61,581 nt of DNA from a virus. Positions 45,025 through 55,126 of this stretch are shown piece after piece. Location of the stretch: the IMG/VR virus record IMGVR_UViG_3300046368_001160, positions 1 through 61,581 of that record. One strand, given 5' to 3'. Every line of letters begins with the position of its first letter. Position 1 is the first letter of the stretch. The notes under the pieces are model-generated. The model worked only from the letters and a program-made list of their open reading frames with translations, made no database searches and was not told where the DNA came from. The position numbers and the translations under genes are program-made.

Positions 45025-47541
45025 TTAAAACCTCATTATTCCCATAATTTGATTTATAGGAGCAAATGTTCCCGTGAGTTTATATGTTCCACCTTTATAT
45101 TGAAATACAACTCCCTCACTAGGTGCGATAACCTTTGTTCCACCAATCGCAGTTAATCTATCAAGATTTTTGAAAAGTTTTGCAATATCTTTTTTGAACT
45201 TTTCAGGAGATTCCACCGAACTAATCTTTTTTGCTTTTAAAGTTTTAGTGTGTGCATCGAGTGCTTTTGCTATATCATCACTTCCACCCGCTGCTACAAA
45301 TCCTTTAACATTTTGCAGAACTTCTGCTCCGAGTTTTAAAAATATGAATTGGAAAGGCCACATATTTGCTTCAAATTGCTTTACCGTGTCTTCTTTTTCA
45401 AACTTGGTAACCCAAGCAAGCAACTTGGGTTGTTCAGATAATTCTTTTTTAATTGTAGTAATTTTATTAGACTTATCGTTATATGCCCAACGACCAATAA
45501 GTGCTTCGTATACTTTTGCAGGAAATATCTCTTTTAATTTGCTTTGTTGCTTATTCAAAAGATTTCTCCACCACGCATCGTGATACTTCATTACTTTATC
45601 GTTGTCTTTTAATTTAAATTCTTTTTTAAGTTTGTCAATCATCGCAGAATATTTTTTAAACGAATCACCAAATGTTTTGCTTTTAGGAAGTTCCACTACA
45701 ATTGGTGCATTCAACGAATACCGACTTTGAACATCTGCATTGATTTGTTTGAGCATTCCACTTAACATACGAGCAGAATCTTTTAATTCACTTGTTATGT
45801 CGTTTCCATCAGAATCTTCTGAAACTGGTTTTCCTGCGGAATTGTATGCTTGTGTTCCGTGAAAAACCAACATATCTACATTTTGAGGAATAACATTCTG
45901 TGTAGCAGGTGTCATAACCTCTATGTTCATAAATCGTTCACCTTCTTTAAATACTTTATTTTTTTGTGCATCGGATAACTTTGAAATTGCTGATTCTAAA
46001 TCTTTAACTGCACTTACGAACGCATCACGAATGTTTTCAGGACGATCCGCAAAAATGTTTTCAAATGCAGTTACATCTGGAGCATTTGCACCTGCGTTTT
46101 TTAAATGACCTTGATTTCTCGCCGAGACCAACTTGCCATCCTTCCAAGAAAACATTAAATTTTGACCATCAAGTTTTTCAGTAACTTCCTTTTCAACATT
46201 AAGTTCACCTGCCAATGACCTACGAATCATTTCTTTTAAATCAGCAAAAGTTAAATCTTTATCATCAAACGGGTGACTCATGTGGCCAGCCGCACCTCCC
46301 TCTGATATTAGTTTACTTTCTTTGACAGCATGACCCTCAACTCCTTTATCTATTTCATCCCCATCTTCTGCCTTTTGTGTATCAATAACATTCCCACTAA
46401 CATCTTCGTCTCCGTGTTCGTCTTTGGTTCGTATTGACTTTTCTGAACCAAGGAAATCAACCAACTTGTAACCAGCAGTTTCTGCAACTCCGTTGATAAA
46501 ACCAACCCATTGTTGGTGAGCAGATTTTGATGCATCTGTGTCAATCTGATTCATTGGAGTCTTTGCATCAATGTCACCTGCTGGATAAAAACTAACCGCA
46601 GGTACTGGTCCTGCATACTTTCCCCATTCACGGTAGTCTGCGTTTCTGCCTAAACCGTGCTTTCCTACCACATAGTCAAGTAGATCATATCCGAGTTGTT
46701 GTGCTCGTTTATTTGTATATCCTTCATATGACTTACCAGGATAAAACATACTTGGACCATCATCAACCATATTTATTCCCATTGGACCAATTGCACTTAT
46801 TTCATTTAGTAAGTCGGGTATGTTATCTATATATGTTTCAAACTTAGGATATTCATACAAGAAATTTTCAAATAACTTTTCATTTTCAAAAAGAGTTGCA
46901 AACTTATCGGTCAGGTATTTAAATATTTTTTCATCATACCATCCGAACAATTCTTCAAATGCACGGGTTTTGGTCATTTTGTCGTGTTTAGGACTTCCAA
47001 GTAAATCACGTATACGTGTTCCACTTACTTCCTTACCTAGAACTTTAATACTTACATGGGGAGCAACAATAAAATAACCATGTTCTCCAAATGGTTTCAA
47101 ATCATTTTTATTTTTTTCATATGATTGATAATAAGCAGGAGAGCCATCTGCTTTTGTTGTTTTTAATCTACCTGCATCTTTTTCACCAAATATATAAACT
47201 ACGGCAGTTGTATTGGGGTCATATTTTTTTAAAAGTTCTTCACACACATACGGATTCTTAACCTTAACAACATTTTTTACTTTGTGTTTTGTCCATATCA
47301 TTTTCTTTTCTTTAAAATTCAATGGACTTTTTGTAGAATCTGTTTTATCACTTGTTGCTACATATGCTTTATCAAACTTACCATCTAACCACTTGTATGT
47401 TTTGTAGTGGTGAATACCAGCAGGTTGAAATCTACCTGGATAAATGCCGATTACTTTTTTAATTTTTGCTTCTTGTAAGATATCGTCAACCATATAGGTT
47501 GCTAAATCTTCAGATAGCAATTCTGACATTCTTTCATTCAT
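45025..47541 (-). CDS. Fusion of NMN-adenylyltransferase-like and ligase-like nucleotidyltransferase domains
   Basis: This protein has 838 residues. Residues ~28-230 form an HIGH-type nucleotidyltransferase: IGIYPGRFQPAGIHHYKTY resembles the GRFQPxHxGH loop of NadM/NadR-type NMN adenylyltransferases, with the first His replaced. EVSGTRIRDLL near 171-181 is the second signature (ISxTxxR). A linker of ~200 residues follows. The C-terminal ~390 residues show covalent nucleotidyltransferase/ligase motifs: EKLDGQN near 455 (KxDG motif I), ARNQG, MNIEVM, and EGVVFQYKG plus YKLTG near 809 (motifs IV and V). Such an enzyme could make or use NAD or an adenylated end in nucleic acid repair. Substrates are unknown. 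It overlaps the upstream gene by 4 nt. Confidence 0.7.
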   Translation of the reverse strand: MNERMSELLSEDLATYMVDDILQEAKIKKVIGIYPGRFQPAGIHHYKTYKWLDGKFDKAYVATSDKTDSTKSPLNFKEKKMIWTKHKVKNVVKVKNPYVCEELLKKYDPNTTAVVYIFGEKDAGRLKTTKADGSPAYYQSYEKNKNDLKPFGEHGYFIVAPHVSIKVLGKEVSGTRIRDLLGSPKHDKMTKTRAFEELFGWYDEKIFKYLTDKFATLFENEKLFENFLYEYPKFETYIDNIPDLLNEISAIGPMGINMVDDGPSMFYPGKSYEGYTNKRAQQLGYDLLDYVVGKHGLGRNADYREWGKYAGPVPAVSFYPAGDIDAKTPMNQIDTDASKSAHQQWVGFINGVAETAGYKLVDFLGSEKSIRTKDEHGDEDVSGNVIDTQKAEDGDEIDKGVEGHAVKESKLISEGGAAGHMSHPFDDKDLTFADLKEMIRRSLAGELNVEKEVTEKLDGQNLMFSWKDGKLVSARNQGHLKNAGANAPDVTAFENIFADRPENIRDAFVSAVKDLESAISKLSDAQKNKVFKEGERFMNIEVMTPATQNVIPQNVDMLVFHGTQAYNSAGKPVSEDSDGNDITSELKDSARMLSGMLKQINADVQSRYSLNAPIVVELPKSKTFGDSFKKYSAMIDKLKKEFKLKDNDKVMKYHDAWWRNLLNKQQSKLKEIFPAKVYEALIGRWAYNDKSNKITTIKKELSEQPKLLAWVTKFEKEDTVKQFEANMWPFQFIFLKLGAEVLQNVKGFVAAGGSDDIAKALDAHTKTLKAKKISSVESPEKFKKDIAKLFKNLDRLTAIGGTKVIAPSEGVVFQYKGGTYKLTGTFAPINQIMGIMRF

Positions 47542-49510: not shown

Positions 49511-52111
49511 TTATGATGTGTATTTTATCTTACTAAAAGAACCTTCTTTTTGAATTTCTATAATCTCGTCCACCATATCTCTCATTACATCCAAATGACT
49601 TATAACCATTATGAACTCAAACTGCCCCTTTAAATAGGTAAACAAATTAAATACACTACTTATGTTGTCTCCGTCTAACGAACCCCACCCCTCGTCAATA
49701 ACAAGGAAATTAGAACGAGGAAGACTACTAACATTGATAAGTGCAACACGCATTGCAATACTGCTAATGAAACGTTCCATTCCACTACACATTTCTAAAG
49801 GCCAATGACGATCTTCATATGTAATCTTTGAATAGATGTGTTTTCCGTCCATTTCAAGTTGCATACCAAAATCAACAATCTGAGAAAGAATATTATTAAC
49901 TTCACTTTCAATGCTTGGAATTGTTTTGGAAATAAGTTCATATGAAATACCATCTCGTTTAACTGCGTCTAGATATAATTCGTAACCACGTTTTTTTCGT
50001 TCGTATCCCTTTGCTTCTTCAATTGACGCAAGTATATCTTCGTGTTCTTTTTCAACAATCTTTACTTCCCCAAATAAAGTTTGAAGCTTCTCGGTTTCAA
50101 TATTTGCTATATTGTTTATGTTGATTAACTCGTTCTGAATTTTATCTACATCTACTTGCAGTTTTTTATTAAACTCTATGATGTCCTTGCATTCGTAATA
50201 TGATTCTATATTTTTATCGTTAATAACAATATCCTTTTCCAACGATTCTATCATACTAGATAGTGCAAGCACCTTAGAGTCTGCTTCGTTTATTTCGTAA
50301 GTAAGTTGAGTTGTTGTAGATTTTAACTCACCTAGTTTTTCATAATTGGATTCAACATCCTTACATTCATCTAGTATTTTTAACAATTCATTTTTTTGTG
50401 TTACAAGATCATCAGCAGCTGCTTTATCTTTATCAAGTTCTTCTTTTGTTTGCGAAGCACTTTCTATAAGATTTTTTGAATTAGTTACGCAAAACTTACA
50501 TTCAGGATCATACTCATGACAATCGTAGTGTTTGAGTTTGTCTAATTTAGCATTTACAGAGGTACGAAGAACTGCTAAGTCTTTTTCAACCAACGTTATT
50601 TCTTCACGTATTTTTAAAACCTCAACATACCTGTCCTCTGTACCATCCAGTGCAGACAACTCGGTTGATTTAGTTTTTCTGTTCGTTACCAATTGTTTTT
50701 TTCTATCAGATTCACTGTTTCTATTTTCTTTAGCAACTTCTAGTCGTTCTTGTAAATTCTTTTTATTAAATTCTAGTTTATCTATATCCACCGATGATTC
50801 GTCAAAAGAACAATTCTTAAATTGAGAGTTTTTATCTGATAATTGTTTATTGAAACGTTTTTGCTCAAGTAGTGCCAAATTAGTTTTACTATCCTGTTCA
50901 GTATATCTAGTTTTAACATCCTCAAGTTTTTCTTGGGTATCGGATAATGTTTCATCAAAATCTTCACGATTAAATCGTTTCAACAAAGCATTAATTTCCT
51001 TAATGTCTTCGGATGCGGTTGAATGTAGTTGATCAAATGTATCAATGCCCATGAACTGAGCAAGCAGGTCCTTTCTTTCACTTTGACTTTTGTCTATAAA
51101 AATCGCATTGTTATTTTGCAAACTAAGTGCAGTAAGAACAAAGTCATCATACGAACCAACATGATCACGAATAGCCGCATTTGTTCCCGCTCGTTGTTCT
51201 CCGTTCAAAGATAATTGCTGACCATCTTCATCTAACTTCCAGAAATCAACAACAACGGTAACATCTCCATTTTTTTTAGTAGTTGCAGTTCTATCTATGT
51301 AATAATTTACTCCTGATATTTCAAAATTTAATTTACAATAAAAAGAATCTGTTTGTGTGTTCAATACATGAGCAGCCTTGAATGCACGATCACATTTGTC
51401 AAAGAGACAGAAACTCAAAGCACTCATAACACTACTTTTACCACTTGCATTAGACGCAAACAATCCCATAACACTTTTCATATTAGAAAAGTCAACAATG
51501 TTACCATCTCCGTAACTAAACATATTTCCAAACTCAAATTTCTTTGGTTTCCAAATACAATTTCTAAGTGTTTCTTTTATTATGAGTTTTTCGTTTATTT
51601 CTTTGTTTATATCAAGTGCGGTTTTAACTTGTTCATCTTCCACCACAAAATTACGTCTTAAATAATCTTCTATTAAATCATTCTGAACCTGGACTAACGA
51701 TATATCACCGAAGTCAAATTTGTTGTCACGATCATATTTTTTTGCTTCTGATATTGCGTCACATCGTGTTACATTTAAATCTGTAATGTTGGTTTGCTTG
51801 CGAATTTCAGCAATGATTTCTTTAGTTTCTGTTGCAGTTGTGTTAAATACCTTTACACGCAATCTTGCTTTTTTTGGAAGTTGACTTAAATCACTTACAC
51901 ACTTTCCGTCACGAACTTCTATTGTATAATACCCATAATCGTTTTGGACTTCGTGGTGGGTATGTGTTCTATTTGGAATGTCCCACATAACATATCCATG
52001 ACCGACTGGTTTTTCACCATGATTTTGTTGAATCATACTTCCCGAATAAACCACGACAGGTTTATTTGCGTTGTGTCGTTTTACCTTTATATACTCTTCT
52101 TTATCTTCCAT
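49511..52111 (-). CDS. Rad50/SbcC-like ATPase (gp46) carrying the Mre11 C-terminal half
   Basis: This 866-residue protein is the ATPase of the Mre11-Rad50 complex, which processes DNA ends for recombination-dependent replication. From about residue 190 it is a normal gp46: KKFEFGNMFSYG, Walker A GLFASNASGKSS (~216-228), long coiled coils around the zinc hook CKFC (~537), ABC signature MCSGMERFISS (~773) and Walker B NFLVIDEGWGSLD (~807). The first ~190 residues instead look like the capping and C-terminal part of Mre11/gp47: KPVVVYSGSMIQQNHGEKP, GHGYVMWDI, then NDYGYYTIEVRDGK. These are missing from the separate nuclease gene upstream. It overlaps the glycosyltransferase gene by 11 nt. Confidence 0.85.
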   Translation of the reverse strand: MEDKEEYIKVKRHNANKPVVVYSGSMIQQNHGEKPVGHGYVMWDIPNRTHTHHEVQNDYGYYTIEVRDGKCVSDLSQLPKKARLRVKVFNTTATETKEIIAEIRKQTNITDLNVTRCDAISEAKKYDRDNKFDFGDISLVQVQNDLIEDYLRRNFVVEDEQVKTALDINKEINEKLIIKETLRNCIWKPKKFEFGNMFSYGDGNIVDFSNMKSVMGLFASNASGKSSVMSALSFCLFDKCDRAFKAAHVLNTQTDSFYCKLNFEISGVNYYIDRTATTKKNGDVTVVVDFWKLDEDGQQLSLNGEQRAGTNAAIRDHVGSYDDFVLTALSLQNNNAIFIDKSQSERKDLLAQFMGIDTFDQLHSTASEDIKEINALLKRFNREDFDETLSDTQEKLEDVKTRYTEQDSKTNLALLEQKRFNKQLSDKNSQFKNCSFDESSVDIDKLEFNKKNLQERLEVAKENRNSESDRKKQLVTNRKTKSTELSALDGTEDRYVEVLKIREEITLVEKDLAVLRTSVNAKLDKLKHYDCHEYDPECKFCVTNSKNLIESASQTKEELDKDKAAADDLVTQKNELLKILDECKDVESNYEKLGELKSTTTQLTYEINEADSKVLALSSMIESLEKDIVINDKNIESYYECKDIIEFNKKLQVDVDKIQNELININNIANIETEKLQTLFGEVKIVEKEHEDILASIEEAKGYERKKRGYELYLDAVKRDGISYELISKTIPSIESEVNNILSQIVDFGMQLEMDGKHIYSKITYEDRHWPLEMCSGMERFISSIAMRVALINVSSLPRSNFLVIDEGWGSLDGDNISSVFNLFTYLKGQFEFIMVISHLDVMRDMVDEIIEIQKEGSFSKIKYTS

Positions 52112-52985
52112 ATGATATAATCTTCAAAATTTCGTCTCCAACTTCTTGATCAGTTAAATTAGGATCAAGGTGTATATGACCTCCTGACGGAAAATACTTA
52201 CGAGGTCCTAGGAATGGTTCTATATAAGTTTTATTTTTATCTACCTTAGTACCATTGGGTCCATACACACCGTGAATGTAATCAGTTGTTATTATTGTAC
52301 GTGTTCCAATTGCAGAACTTAAATTGGTAAGACATCCTTCTGGACCAATTACATAATCAGAATTTTTAATTAAACTTGCGGTAAAACTAAATTTGCTTGC
52401 TGAGTTTATACTTGGAAACTTTTTAGAATCCTTAGACTCAATCCCTATCGCAAATAGCATAATTTGTTCATTGCCTCGCAGTGATTCAATTATTGAATGA
52501 GCATTTCGTGTAATTGGTCTATCAGTTGAATTATTTAATGGGAAACTTTTTCTATCCCAGTCCATTACATAACAAACTTTTATTATGTCAGAATTCCAAT
52601 ACTCAATTTCAACAAGTTCCTTCATACTGCACTCGATTGAATAATCACTTACGGGATTTGTAAAAATCTCAAAGGTATCGTTGAAACTTTTAATATTGCA
52701 CATTCTTTGGTATTGAGAAACTACTGATGTGGAAAGATTTAATTCATGACTACTTTTATTTATGTCAAAAATATCAGTATAACCACTACCCGAATCTTTA
52801 TAGTAAACTTTGTCAATGTATGGGTTGTTATTCAAAAGTTCAAGTGGTTGTAAATAATTTACATTAAAATCAAGTTGACATGATGTTTCCCACGGAGATT
52901 CTTCTTTTATTTTTTTAGCAACACTACTTGCAAATAAAATATCACCGATATCCAAGTCAATACAATTTATTAAAATCTTAGTCAT
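52101..52985 (-). CDS. GT9-like (heptosyltransferase-type) glycosyltransferase
   Basis: This gene encodes 294 residues from the ATG at 52985, which overlaps the Mre11 stop in ATGACTAA; two in-frame ATGs slightly upstream (53003, 52994) are also possible. The N-terminus, ILINCIDLDIGDILFASS, recalls the GD loop of GT9 heptosyltransferases. Near residue 215, NSDYVIGPEGCLTNLSSAIG then GTRTIITTDYIHG matches the family's donor-binding region (viG.dtG..HLaaalg). The C-terminus is Gly/Pro-rich. The donor and acceptor sugars are unknown. It is wedged between two halves of the Mre11 coding sequence, with overlaps on both sides, an odd place for an envelope- or virion-glycosylation gene. Confidence 0.7.
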   Translation of the reverse strand: MTKILINCIDLDIGDILFASSVAKKIKEESPWETSCQLDFNVNYLQPLELLNNNPYIDKVYYKDSGSGYTDIFDINKSSHELNLSTSVVSQYQRMCNIKSFNDTFEIFTNPVSDYSIECSMKELVEIEYWNSDIIKVCYVMDWDRKSFPLNNSTDRPITRNAHSIIESLRGNEQIMLFAIGIESKDSKKFPSINSASKFSFTASLIKNSDYVIGPEGCLTNLSSAIGTRTIITTDYIHGVYGPNGTKVDKNKTYIEPFLGPRKYFPSGGHIHLDPNLTDQEVGDEILKIISYGR

Positions 52986-53682
52986 TACACACATCCCACC
53001 CATCTAATTTATATGAATCTAATTTACTTTTTGGTATAAATCTATGTTCTGTTTTGTACTCCTGTAAAACTTGGTATTTGTGAATATCACCGAGCATGAC
53101 AATATCATATCCATCAAATTGTGGAAGTGTTAAATCTCCCCCAACTACAATATAACCAATATCGGTTGTACTTCTTCTTATTGCCCCGTGATAAACTGCA
53201 ATCTTTGTGTTAATTGATGGATCATCAATTTCATTGCCGTGTATGTATTCAGATGGTTCTTCAAATATACCAAATACACTTATCGCAACATCACCGATTT
53301 TATATACACCGGTGTCTTTTAAATAAAATAAATTATTATCATCCATCATATTCATAATCGGAGATAAAACATCAAGACGGTCTGGATTGTTTAAATTGCA
53401 ATCATGATTACCTGCAATTACAACGGTAGGATGTAACTGAGAACACTTACGAAGAAATGATGAAATTTGCTGAATAAGTTCCGGTGACATCTCTGTTTTG
53501 GCATGAGCAATATCTCCTCCAACAAAGATAATAGCATTATCAAGATTGTCTTTTTTAACTTGTTCATAAAAATTATCAAAAACAGCTGAATACTCTGTGT
53601 GTCGTTTTACATTGCGAATATGTATATCAGCAAGGTGATATACTTTCTCAATATTTTTTAAACTTGATTTTAAGTTATGCAT
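52978..53682 (-). CDS. Mre11/SbcD-like nuclease domain (gp47), lacking the capping domain
   Basis: This 234-residue metallo-phosphoesterase nuclease partners Rad50. All five motifs are present: HLADIHIRN, VGGDIAHAK, AGNHDCN, AVYHGAI and LGDIHKYQV. The protein stops about 30 residues after motif V, whereas T4 gp47 continues to about 339 aa with a capping domain and a Rad50-binding tail. That missing part appears at the front of the downstream Rad50-like protein. The gene overlaps the primase by 13 nt upstream and the glycosyltransferase by 8 nt downstream. The nuclease core is intact, so activity is likely if the two halves reassemble. Confidence 0.88.
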   Translation of the reverse strand: MHNLKSSLKNIEKVYHLADIHIRNVKRHTEYSAVFDNFYEQVKKDNLDNAIIFVGGDIAHAKTEMSPELIQQISSFLRKCSQLHPTVVIAGNHDCNLNNPDRLDVLSPIMNMMDDNNLFYLKDTGVYKIGDVAISVFGIFEEPSEYIHGNEIDDPSINTKIAVYHGAIRRSTTDIGYIVVGGDLTLPQFDGYDIVMLGDIHKYQVLQEYKTEHRFIPKSKLDSYKLDGWDVCND

Positions 53683-54596
53683 AACTTTTGCTTCATTAAC
53701 TCACTAAAATCAAGAAGATTGGTTTCTCTAATTTTATGAATAATTTTGTTAAATCCTAAATCAGCAGCGTCTTCATTTTCCATTCTTACCAATTTTACTT
53801 TTATATTATCGTTCATTAAAGTTTCTGATATGTGTAGTGCATTTTTATATGCATCATTATCTAATACAATACTGACTTCTTTTACACCATGTTCTATTAA
53901 ACGCATTTTAAGTTTGCTTGGAATATTTTTTCCGAGTAAAGCAATTGCATTTCTACGAATTGCCATCGCATCAAATACACCTTCGCATAAAATCAAAGGT
54001 TCAGAGAAATCTATTTGGTTTTCGAATACTACTACATCTTTGCTCACAGGTGGGTTCTTATACTTCAAATAAGCATTACCTGTAAAATCTCTTGCAAGAA
54101 AGTAATTTAATTTGTTGTCTGCATCAAATGAAGGAACAATGATTCTTCCTGCATAATCTCCTTTGTCGCAATATCCTATATCATATCGTTCAATGTCGTA
54201 TGATTCAATTCCACGATTTTTTAAATACTTCATTGCTTTAGAATAAGAAAAATCAGTATGTGTTTCGGTCAATCTTTTAAATTCATAAGGCAACGATACA
54301 AATTGTTCTTCAGTATCTGCAAGTTTGGTATTTTTTGGAAGTTTGACAATCTTTGATAACTCTGCAAAATAATTGCTTGGAACTTGCATTCTTTTGAATA
54401 ACGAAAAGATGCTACGACCTTTGGCATTTGTATCAATCCAACTTTGCCACCTTTGCGTTGTAAGATTAACTGCCAACTTTGGTTTACGGTGATGAGAAAA
54501 CGGACACACAAACATTGCTTCGTCTTTAGAGACGATTTTACCTTCACCTAGCACCTTCTGCAACAAGGCATATAACTTTTGCTCGGAAATCCCCAT
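53670..54596 (-). CDS. DNA primase, DnaG-type with Toprim domain (gp61-like)
   Basis: This gene encodes 308 residues from the ATG at 54596, overlapping the resolvase stop as TGATG. The N-terminal zinc-type domain is degenerate: CPFSHHRKPKLAVN has the Cys/His and KP-x-L pattern of CHC2 fingers, but later Cys ligands are not evident. The catalytic core contains RIIVPSFDADNKLNYFLAR, and the Toprim domain has LILCEGVFDAMAI (catalytic Glu) and IVLDNDAYKNA (Asp-x-Asp). The size fits T4-type gp61 primases. It synthesises RNA primers for lagging-strand replication, normally with a helicase that is not in this window. It is part of a coupled resolvase-primase-Mre11-Rad50 run. Confidence 0.85.
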   Translation of the reverse strand: MGISEQKLYALLQKVLGEGKIVSKDEAMFVCPFSHHRKPKLAVNLTTQRWQSWIDTNAKGRSIFSLFKRMQVPSNYFAELSKIVKLPKNTKLADTEEQFVSLPYEFKRLTETHTDFSYSKAMKYLKNRGIESYDIERYDIGYCDKGDYAGRIIVPSFDADNKLNYFLARDFTGNAYLKYKNPPVSKDVVVFENQIDFSEPLILCEGVFDAMAIRRNAIALLGKNIPSKLKMRLIEHGVKEVSIVLDNDAYKNALHISETLMNDNIKVKLVRMENEDAADLGFNKIIHKIRETNLLDFSELMKQKLCIT

Positions 54597-55126
54597 CAAT
54601 TGTCAATAGTATACCAATGATATAGCGATGCTACCGTTGCGTCCAACATATCGTAGTTCCTTTTATCATAATTTTTTCTACTATTATAGACAATAAATTC
54701 ATTTAAATCAATCTTTTTTTCAAGTTGTTCACGTACAAAAGTCTTACTATCAACTCCTTGTTCACGACTTTTTCCGAATACGGCCTTGCGAAGAGAAGAC
54801 ACATTTACGTGTTCTACGTCCAATTCATACAATGCTTCTATTACGTAACTTATTACTGCATTGCACTTTGCCAACTTGACAATAGTCTGTTGACTTGTTC
54901 GTCCACCACCAAATCCACTTAATGTATCTTCAACTATGATTACTGAAGGTTCTATATCTAGTTTATCTAGTATTTCAGCAACATTATGTGCCTTTTGCTT
55001 GATACTGATTTCTTTACGAATATCAATGTATCCAGCATGAGTTACTTTATTTTTAGAAGAGGATACACTATAACCTACTACAGTTGAACTAATATCCAAT
55101 CCTAAACAATAGGATTTATTTTGCAT
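54596..55126 (-). CDS. RuvC-like Holliday junction resolvase
   Basis: This 176-residue protein has an RNase H-type fold. Acidic catalytic residues are visible in LGLDISSTVVGYS (Asp11), VIIVEDTLSGFGGG (Glu66) and the C-terminal YDMLDATVASLYHWY (Asp pair). GRTSQQTIVKLAKCNA resembles the RuvC-like helix that follows the second acidic motif. Length matches RuvC (about 173). It would cut branched DNA during recombination or before packaging, a task done in T4 by the unrelated endonuclease VII (gp49). It begins the coupled replication/recombination run; the primase start overlaps its stop. Confidence 0.8.
   Translation of the reverse strand: MQNKSYCLGLDISSTVVGYSVSSSKNKVTHAGYIDIRKEISIKQKAHNVAEILDKLDIEPSVIIVEDTLSGFGGGRTSQQTIVKLAKCNAVISYVIEALYELDVEHVNVSSLRKAVFGKSREQGVDSKTFVREQLEKKIDLNEFIVYNSRKNYDKRNYDMLDATVASLYHWYTIDN

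Follow-up and report, generated by a model that had tools for sequence, protein, structure and literature searches.

Apparent fission of an ancestral Mre11-Rad50 fusion by a glycosyltransferase gene in a clade of phages

The window, the whole stretch of 61,581 nt of viral DNA that was analysed, carries an Mre11-Rad50 locus that, as read from its sequence, is the product of a fission: an ancestral Mre11-Rad50 fusion appears to have been split by the insertion of a glycosyltransferase (GT) gene. Mre11-Rad50 is the universal DNA-break enzyme, and the central question about it is how the ATP state of Rad50 controls the Mre11 nuclease. The locus consists of a 234-aa Mre11 nuclease ORF, the GT ORF and an 866-aa Rad50 ORF, all on the minus strand (Table 1). 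The ORF coordinates confirm the overlaps of 8 nt (nuclease/GT, counted from the ATG at 52985) and 11 nt (GT/866-aa ORF) given in an earlier sequence-only reading of this DNA; an alternative upstream in-frame ATG at 53003 would extend the GT protein to 300 aa. As the same three-gene arrangement is present in 37 independent contigs, it is due neither to chance nor to an assembly error.

Table 1. Features of the split Mre11-Rad50 locus and its upstream neighbours (positions in the window)
Feature	Position	Strand	Basis or remark
RuvC-like resolvase, next gene upstream, same operon	54596..55126	(-)	phrog_159 E 3e-9; synteny
DnaG-type primase, directly upstream	53670..54599	(-)	phrog_47 E 4e-44
Mre11/SbcD nuclease half, 234 aa	52978..53682	(-)	PF00149 above cut-off; phrog_100 columns 20-222
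New C-terminal tail, nuclease residues 210-234, KTEHRFIPKSKLDSYKLDGWDVCND	52981..53055	(-)	no counterpart in fused relatives examined
GT insert, predicted GT-B fold, GT9/heptosyltransferase-like, 294 aa	52101..52985	(-)	AF2 and Foldseek
866-aa chain, Mre11 C-terminal part plus Rad50/SbcC	49511..52111	(-)	phrog_100, phrog_77
New N-terminal head of the Rad50 chain, MEDKEEYIKVKRH	52073..52111	(-)	no counterpart in fused relatives examined
Mre11 remainder, last nuclease strand(s) (KPVVVYSGSMIQQNHGE...) and capping/linker, to about residue 190	51542..52072	(-)	alignments
Rad50/SbcC ABC-ATPase and coiled coil	49514..51541	(-)	phrog_77 E 1e-41
Walker A	~51431-51454	(-)	
CxxC zinc hook	~50489-50500	(-)	
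Signature	~49775-49786	(-)	
Walker B	~49691-49708	(-)	

By its motifs, the 234-aa protein can be classed as an Mre11/SbcD-type nuclease. All metal-ligand positions are kept (D19, H21, D57, N92, H93, H165, D199 and H201), and the positions checked are identical in 70/70 aligned proteins, with the exception of H21 (68/70). Motif V reads GDIH, with Asp replacing the first His, as in Mimivirus R555. Motif and profile data agree with the earlier description of a nuclease with five phosphoesterase motifs that ends right after motif V. The AF2 model of this half (pLDDT 84) has a good Mre11 fold up to residue ~207 and aligns to T. maritima Mre11 (3tho) with a VIA-align Z of 16.9. Model residue ~207 is equivalent to residue 214 in P. 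furiosus and 224 in T. maritima, and the first linker to the cap in P. furiosus Mre11 comprises Y222-V236 (PMC8824468). The break is upstream of this type of linker and therefore inside the nuclease domain. The nuclease and the capping domain are not on one polypeptide, the core ending at about residue 209 of the 234-aa chain. In all members of the split clade the break point is in the same loop, right after motif V (LGDIHKYQVLQEY^), through which the fused relatives read without interruption, e.g. LGDIHKHQILQEYDDNESLPVVVYAGSMIQQNHGE. The tail that follows contains no indels in 25/25 distinct sequences. It evolves with a dN/dS of ~0.20, although the GT gene already begins within its 3' end, and it is modelled with low confidence, with a short helix (218-224).

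The 866-aa chain has the features expected of a Rad50/SbcC ABC ATPase: residues 86-864 match phrog_77 (SbcC, E 1e-41), profile matches in the PDB include SbcC 6s6v and Rad50 5f3w, and the motif residues (Walker A, signature, Walker B and CxxC hook) are invariant across the split clade. The proposal that its first ~190 residues derive from the C-terminal part of Mre11 held up in the profile comparison, in which residues 16-156 matched phrog_100 (SbcD) columns 222-356 with E 2e-5, complementary to the columns 20-222 covered by the nuclease half. In the segment of the Mre11 remainder, a fused relative aligns with T. maritima Mre11 IYPGSLIRIDFGEE. The cap is thus on the Rad50 chain, as had been supposed, but the term 'capping half' understates what this chain contains, because the break is inside the nuclease domain after motif V and the last nuclease strand(s) are found there, too. 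For the same reason, the missing part of the Mre11 fold is probably supplied in trans by the Rad50 chain. The short head that precedes this segment is conserved in the split clade (dN/dS ~0.26).

The direction of the event was revealed by the relatives of the locus. Among ~340 related viral loci, 284 (186 distinct C-termini) encode nuclease, cap and Rad50 in one intact ORF of ~1,050 aa without an insert, compared with 50 split loci (32 distinct). In the intact single-chain protein L067 (1063 aa), residues 4-216 match the nuclease half (E 3e-51) and residues 211-1062 the 866-aa ORF (E 1e-199) in collinear order, and L067 maps as two adjoining pieces in single copy in 7/7 records. A primase next to the gene is found in most fused relatives as well and shows that the insertion happened in place; the primase/RuvC order is common to fused and split loci. 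With 100% support, the tree places the split clade among fused lineages, with two state changes in total. Outside the split lineages, all relatives sampled are full fusions, the nearest ones and the distant L083 among them. A scan of genome contigs found no relatives in prokaryote genomes.

The sequence-only reading had proposed the opposite history, in which a gp47 gene of a two-gene gp47/gp46 pair was broken, its 3' half joined gp46 in frame and the GT gene landed between the halves. This order of events would give the same present-day anatomy; it would, however, require many independent fusions, as all sampled relatives outside the split lineages are fused. We consider it very improbable and rejected it on the prevalence of full fusions and the nesting of the split clade. 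The suggested survey for an unsplit ancestor did recover unsplit forms, but these are full Mre11-Rad50 fusions and not gp47. Likewise, a covalent Mre11-Rad50 link is present, as cap-Rad50, but it was not made by the rearrangement; the 284 fused loci mark it as ancestral. No unsplit gp47, and no second metallophosphoesterase or Mre11/Rad50, was found in the window record and six larger records of the clade (115-170 kb; fragments of unestablished completeness).

Purifying selection on the two halves is strong, with dN/dS values of 0.09 for the nuclease, 0.06 for the cap and 0.10 for Rad50 (GT: 0.20). The view that the arrangement is stable and not in decay was borne out. Selection also bears on the idea that the halves no longer cooperate, the 234-aa protein being a lone small nuclease or inactive and the 866-aa protein a Rad50 with a merely structural Mre11 remnant. 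The chains are indeed separate, the new tail could stabilise the nuclease half by itself, and the model of the lone half is confident to residue ~207. Nevertheless, we regard this loss of cooperation as unlikely: no other part is as constrained as the cap/strand segment, every ligand position is retained, and no substitute Mre11 was seen in the seven records. Co-inheritance was dropped as evidence for an interaction. The nuclease-Rad50 distance correlation was at first much above that with the GT, but the contrast vanished once the deep members were removed (nuclease-GT r 0.70, nuclease-cap r 0.45); the correlation between the halves is no better than that of either half to the GT, so co-inheritance offers no independent proof.

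Could the GT gene still be bypassed, by RNA splicing or by programmed frameshifting, to give a full-length fusion? In favour of this, the two pieces run in the same order as in the intact fusion. An intron at the split was rejected, as neither split locus has an Rfam match to a group I/II intron or any other RNA family; the sequence outside the GT gene, into which an intron core would have to fit, amounts to just ~70 and 30 nt. The three ORFs are in three different frames, and tail and head show the substitution pattern of protein-coding sequence (dN/dS 0.20 and 0.26), which leaves this explanation a negligible probability.

The inserted protein was identified at the level of predicted structure, in agreement with the earlier assignment of a glycosyltransferase gene between the halves. 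Its AF2 model (pTM 0.79) has a predicted GT-B fold closest to GT9/heptosyltransferases, with GT9 3tov (E 2e-8), WaaC 2h1f and WaaF 1psw as the best Foldseek matches (range E 1e-7 to 1e-8). The profile match to 3tov is weak (E 0.08), and the window protein has no significant match in Pfam, PHROG or NCBIfam; DUF354 (PF04007, best E 0.0016) matches 13 of 17 relatives, but not the window protein. The insert matches the GT-B fold of the GT9 ADP-heptose glycosyltransferases WaaC, WaaF and TibC, but differs from them in having ~10% identity and no family profile above cut-off. All GT relatives detected (37/37 contigs, IMG/VR) are located at this site, and a tblastn search of 50,697 phage records found none. 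The GC content gives no signal of a recent insertion (31.1% in the GT, 32-33% in the flanks). Probably, the GT is an unrelated host-surface or glycan gene housed in the locus.

The account we favour, and hold to be likely as a whole, begins with an R555-like single chain of ~1,050 aa in the order nuclease-cap-Rad50, encoded in a RuvC-primase-Mre11/Rad50 operon. Insertion of the GT gene into the loop after motif V would have turned one gene into three overlapping cistrons. The upstream 234-aa piece would have retained every metal ligand of the nuclease, and the downstream 866-aa piece the last beta-sandwich strand(s), the cap and the whole of Rad50 behind a start codon of its own. A single message would then yield two chains, whose translation would be coupled where the stop and start codons overlap, and these chains would refold against each other, with the N-terminal extension of Rad50 completing the nuclease domain. 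The product would resemble any other Mre11-Rad50 end-processing ATPase-nuclease, except that its chain break has moved from the Mre11/Rad50 junction to about Mre11 residue 209. The split, the insertion in place, the fixation across a diverse clade and the purifying selection on both pieces are evident from the comparison of sequences.

A second split in the same loop is present in the distant huge phage LR756508 (L082). Its insert is a 305-aa protein with a Zn-ribbon and a TnsA-like PD-(D/E)xK domain, resembling a homing endonuclease by partial matches to HNH-endonuclease-type profiles. An AU test rejected one split clade when L090 was included (p 7e-10), and so did a test with L090 and L091 under a mixture model (p 9e-5), but one clade was not rejected when the sister lineage was omitted (p 0.32). 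As the result hinges on this one lineage, two independent fissions, in the window clade and in LR756508, are favoured but not proven. The L082 tail did not match an HMM of 25 split-clade tails at E 10; in a shuffle test against L082 the tail showed similarity (p ~4e-4) and the head nothing, and this resemblance was not counted as evidence. The tails, or tail and head joined, were also considered as a known inserted module (DUF4177-like or homing-endonuclease-associated), without a Pfam or convincing PHROG match. A bolder extension of our account, which we offer tentatively, is that the Mre11 active-site fold is completed in trans by the strand on the Rad50 chain, Mre11 being active only when docked on Rad50, that fission took place twice in the same loop, and that tail and head form a docking module.

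The L082 insert raises the question of how the GT gene arrived, since a homing endonuclease gene may first have invaded the motif-V site and split the gene, with the GT coming along or replacing it later. Split phage genes are known to be caused by free-standing homing endonucleases, and T4 has such endonucleases next to GT genes, segA at beta-gt and mobB at alpha-gt (PMC2988022), a precedent in favour of this route. On the other hand, the GT is alone at the site in all members of the split clade examined, with no endonuclease gene left, the window record has no GIY-YIG match, and the L082 insert was assigned as an endonuclease from partial profile matches. We see this route as conceivable, with the balance leaning somewhat against it.

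Fission by GT insertion, the reading preferred here, combines features of several known systems. Mre11/Rad50 (SbcD/SbcC) fusions of the Mimivirus R555 type were described in 2011 by Yoshida et al. (PMC3175470), and Microcystis phage Mel-JY01 (PP395634, 1066 aa) is a phage example of an intact one. These viral fusions share with the window clade the order nuclease-cap-Rad50, the retained cap and the Asp at the His206 position. Unlike them, the window clade does not encode all three parts in a single ORF: another gene interrupts the chain within the nuclease domain and leaves the nuclease core as a polypeptide of its own, while the covalent cap-Rad50 link is kept. In T4, the homologous nuclease and ATPase gp47 and gp46 are products of neighbouring genes with the small 46.1 and 46.2 between them; in contrast to the window, each is complete, with neither a fusion nor a split inside Mre11. 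Phage genes split by homing endonucleases include Aeh1 nrdA (mobE), the T4 60/39 topoisomerase (mobA) and gene 43 of phage 25/44RR, and the split enzymes Aeh1 NrdA, phage 25 gp43 and T4 topoisomerase have been shown or are presumed to reassemble (PMC2988022). As in those cases, a DNA-metabolism gene of the window was split in place with both pieces retained, and uninterrupted homologues with the same primase/RuvC flanks exist. Unlike them, the insert is GT-B/GT9-like throughout the window clade, endonuclease-like in L082 only, and the target was a pre-fused Mre11-Rad50. Mre11/Rad50 fusions and split phage enzymes are already known, whereas a fused Mre11-Rad50 split by a GT is new.

The locus shows a complete cycle from gene fusion to fission, and the gap in a core replication/recombination gene is filled by a GT instead of a homing endonuclease. 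In the course of evolution the chain break has shifted away from the Mre11/Rad50 junction to a point midway in the nuclease domain, where a diverse phage clade has retained it. This makes the locus a natural split-protein experiment, with the prediction that the nuclease domain would not need a continuous covalent chain and that Rad50 may carry part of the active-site fold.

The three minus-strand ORFs of the sequence-only reading are present in the window as claimed, and direct reading of the sequence gives the same cistron overlaps, 8 and 11 nt. The record is a 61.6-kb fragment of a contractile-tailed phage with terminase, portal and tail sheath genes, and a primase and a RuvC-like gene lie upstream of the nuclease half. 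Columns 20-222 of the PHROG SbcD profile (phrog_100) match the 234-aa chain. The proposed comparison of the 866-aa N-terminus with Mre11 C-terminal regions was positive: columns 222-356 match residues 16-156 and exactly abut the columns on the small chain. The remainder is SbcC/Rad50 (phrog_77, E 1e-41). Elsewhere in the window, inspection by eye of an 838-aa protein suggests a nucleotidyltransferase-like segment at the N-terminus (IGIYPGRFQPAGIHH) ahead of a long C-terminal part.

Coordinates of the features discussed (GT, glycosyltransferase; cap, Mre11 capping region)
Feature	Locus	Position	Strand	Basis
Metallophosphoesterase (Mre11 nuclease half), 234 aa	window	53682-52978	minus	ORF
Middle gene (GT-like), 294/300 aa	window	52985 or 53003 to 52101	minus	ORF
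Cap + SbcC/Rad50, 866 aa	window	52111-49511	minus	ORF
Nuclease tail	window	52981-53055		
Protein, 838 aa	window	45025-47541		
Nuclease (243 aa), insert (305 aa), cap-Rad50 (861 aa)	LR756508 (L082), 484-kb uncultured phage			
Insert, 305 aa, Zn-ribbon/TnsA-like PD-(D/E)xK	L082	3040-3957		
Rad50 ORF, 773 aa	L027/L182	7538-9859		
'Endonuclease subunit', 866 aa	L085	3998-6598		
380-aa gene	L086/L089	4255-5397		

Scanning a viral collection with Mre11/Rad50 queries returned about 340 loci, a few of them cut by contig ends, which we classed by profiles for nuclease, cap and Rad50. All three lie within one ORF at 284 loci (186 distinct C-terminal sequences), and 50 loci (32 distinct sequences) are split; certain contigs are counted under more than one locus, which makes the numbers of distinct sequences the more meaningful figures. 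The fused ORFs (about 1,040-1,070 aa) mostly adjoin the same primase and are without the GT; examples are the 1066-aa protein of Microcystis phage Mel-JY01 and one of 1202 aa in a 735-kb uncultured phage. Apart from L082, the split loci all fall into one clade with a GT-like gene between the halves. When the GT itself served as query, 37 contigs were recovered, and in 37/37 it lies together with the nuclease and cap-Rad50 genes. Aligned to the window and six larger clade records, an intact 1063-aa fusion (L067) falls into two adjoining pieces, which cover about residues 4-216 and 211-1062; neither a second Mre11/Rad50 copy nor an unsplit gp47 turned up elsewhere in these seven records, and each has one metallophosphoesterase.

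Some loci deviate. L027/L182, a contig with about 98% identity to the window, has a Rad50 ORF that ends early with the rest in another ORF, reflecting either assembly error or decay. The Thermus phage phiLo protein (L085) matches the Mre11 nuclease profile and neither the cap nor the Rad50 profile used for classification, and is possibly another Mre11-Rad50 fusion, cap-less or very divergent. L086/L089 carry a different gene between primase and intact fusion, and a GIY-YIG-looking gene directly upstream of the primase.

In a tree of 1,022 columns, the split clade is a single group (100%) nested among fused lineages, fused being the background state. The simplest history has gp47-gp46 fusion first and fission second. 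This reverses the order proposed from sequence alone, in which gp47 was broken and one half joined gp46; the survey did recover unsplit relatives, in the form of complete fusions.

Alignment also located the break. Fused relatives read ...LGDIHKHQILQEY-DDNESLPVVVYAGSMIQQNHGE... at this site; in the split clade, the small chain reads ...LGDIHKYQVLQEY followed by a 25-residue tail (residues 210-234), and the large chain starts with a 13-residue head before ...NKPVVVYSGSMIQQNHGE.... The nuclease half was modelled with AF2 at a mean pLDDT of 84 (about 50-60 in the tail); its residues 12-207 superpose on residues 7-224 of T. maritima Mre11 (Z 16.9) and also on residues 1-214 of P. furiosus Mre11, and a fused relative's VVVYAGSMIQQNHGEE aligns with T. 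maritima TIYPGSLIRIDFGEE. In P. furiosus Mre11, three linkers join the cap to the nuclease domain, the first being Y222-V236 (PMC8824468). From superposition, alignment and this linker position, we infer that the break lies inside the nuclease domain, ahead of the first cap linker, and that the large chain carries the last nuclease strand(s), cap and Rad50. Mre11 halves do flank the GT as first described, with the break now placed within the nuclease domain. All metal ligands are on the small chain, and its motif V, GDIH (first His to Asp), is the same as reported for Mimivirus R555 (PMC3175470).

The L082 chain is broken in the same loop. Its insert has Cys-rich segments, a TnsA-like PD-(D/E)xK domain and HNH-endonuclease profile matches; it resembles homing endonucleases and is possibly a new free-standing one. 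Closest to L082 are the intact fusions L090/L091. The AU test rejected one common origin for both splits (p 7e-10; with mixture model, p 9e-5); omitting L090/L091 gave p 0.32, with power lost. The trees favour two independent splits. The nuclease tails of window and L082 are similar beyond shuffling (p ~4e-4), yet a profile built from the split clade's tails fails to find the L082 tail. The pattern ...L..Y...GW is common to both tails.

The inserted gene product had no significant family match by sequence; its relatives gave weak DUF354 matches, and its model (pTM 0.79) matches GT9 3tov, WaaC and WaaF. Within the split clade, GT identity is about 50% where the nuclease reaches about 77%; this divergence, greater than that of its neighbours, would fit a GT dealing with variable host glycans. 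Short GT forms (window, L006, L007, L012) and longer ones with an insertion of about 12 residues are intermixed in genomes that otherwise resemble each other, which suggests exchange of alleles.

Across the split clade, the median of pairwise dN/dS values was 0.09 for the nuclease core, 0.06 for the cap segment, 0.10 for Rad50, 0.20 for both GT and tail and 0.26 for the head, values that are approximate with dS close to saturation. They exclude neutral decay, and the 0.06-0.10 of core, cap and Rad50 bears out the earlier reading of a stable arrangement rather than decay. Because of this constraint, the absence of another Mre11 and split-enzyme precedents, the two chains probably reassemble: in the T4 family, split NrdA of Aeh1 is fully functional, in phage 25 polymerase activity co-purifies with the split gp43, and the T4 topoisomerase was split through mobA insertion (PMC2988022). 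The overlaps suggest translational coupling of the cistrons; the 866-aa start codon has no strong Shine-Dalgarno site upstream, and promoter-like matches around the locus do not exceed shuffled expectation.

Mre11/Rad50 fusions were described for Mimivirus R555 and twelve others, and R555 homologues were reported to be abundant in aquatic viral metagenomes (Yoshida et al., 2011; PMC3175470). We found no earlier account of such a split in our searches of open-access papers. A single-chain Mre11-Rad50 split inside its nuclease domain by a glycosyltransferase gene is real, stable and unusual.
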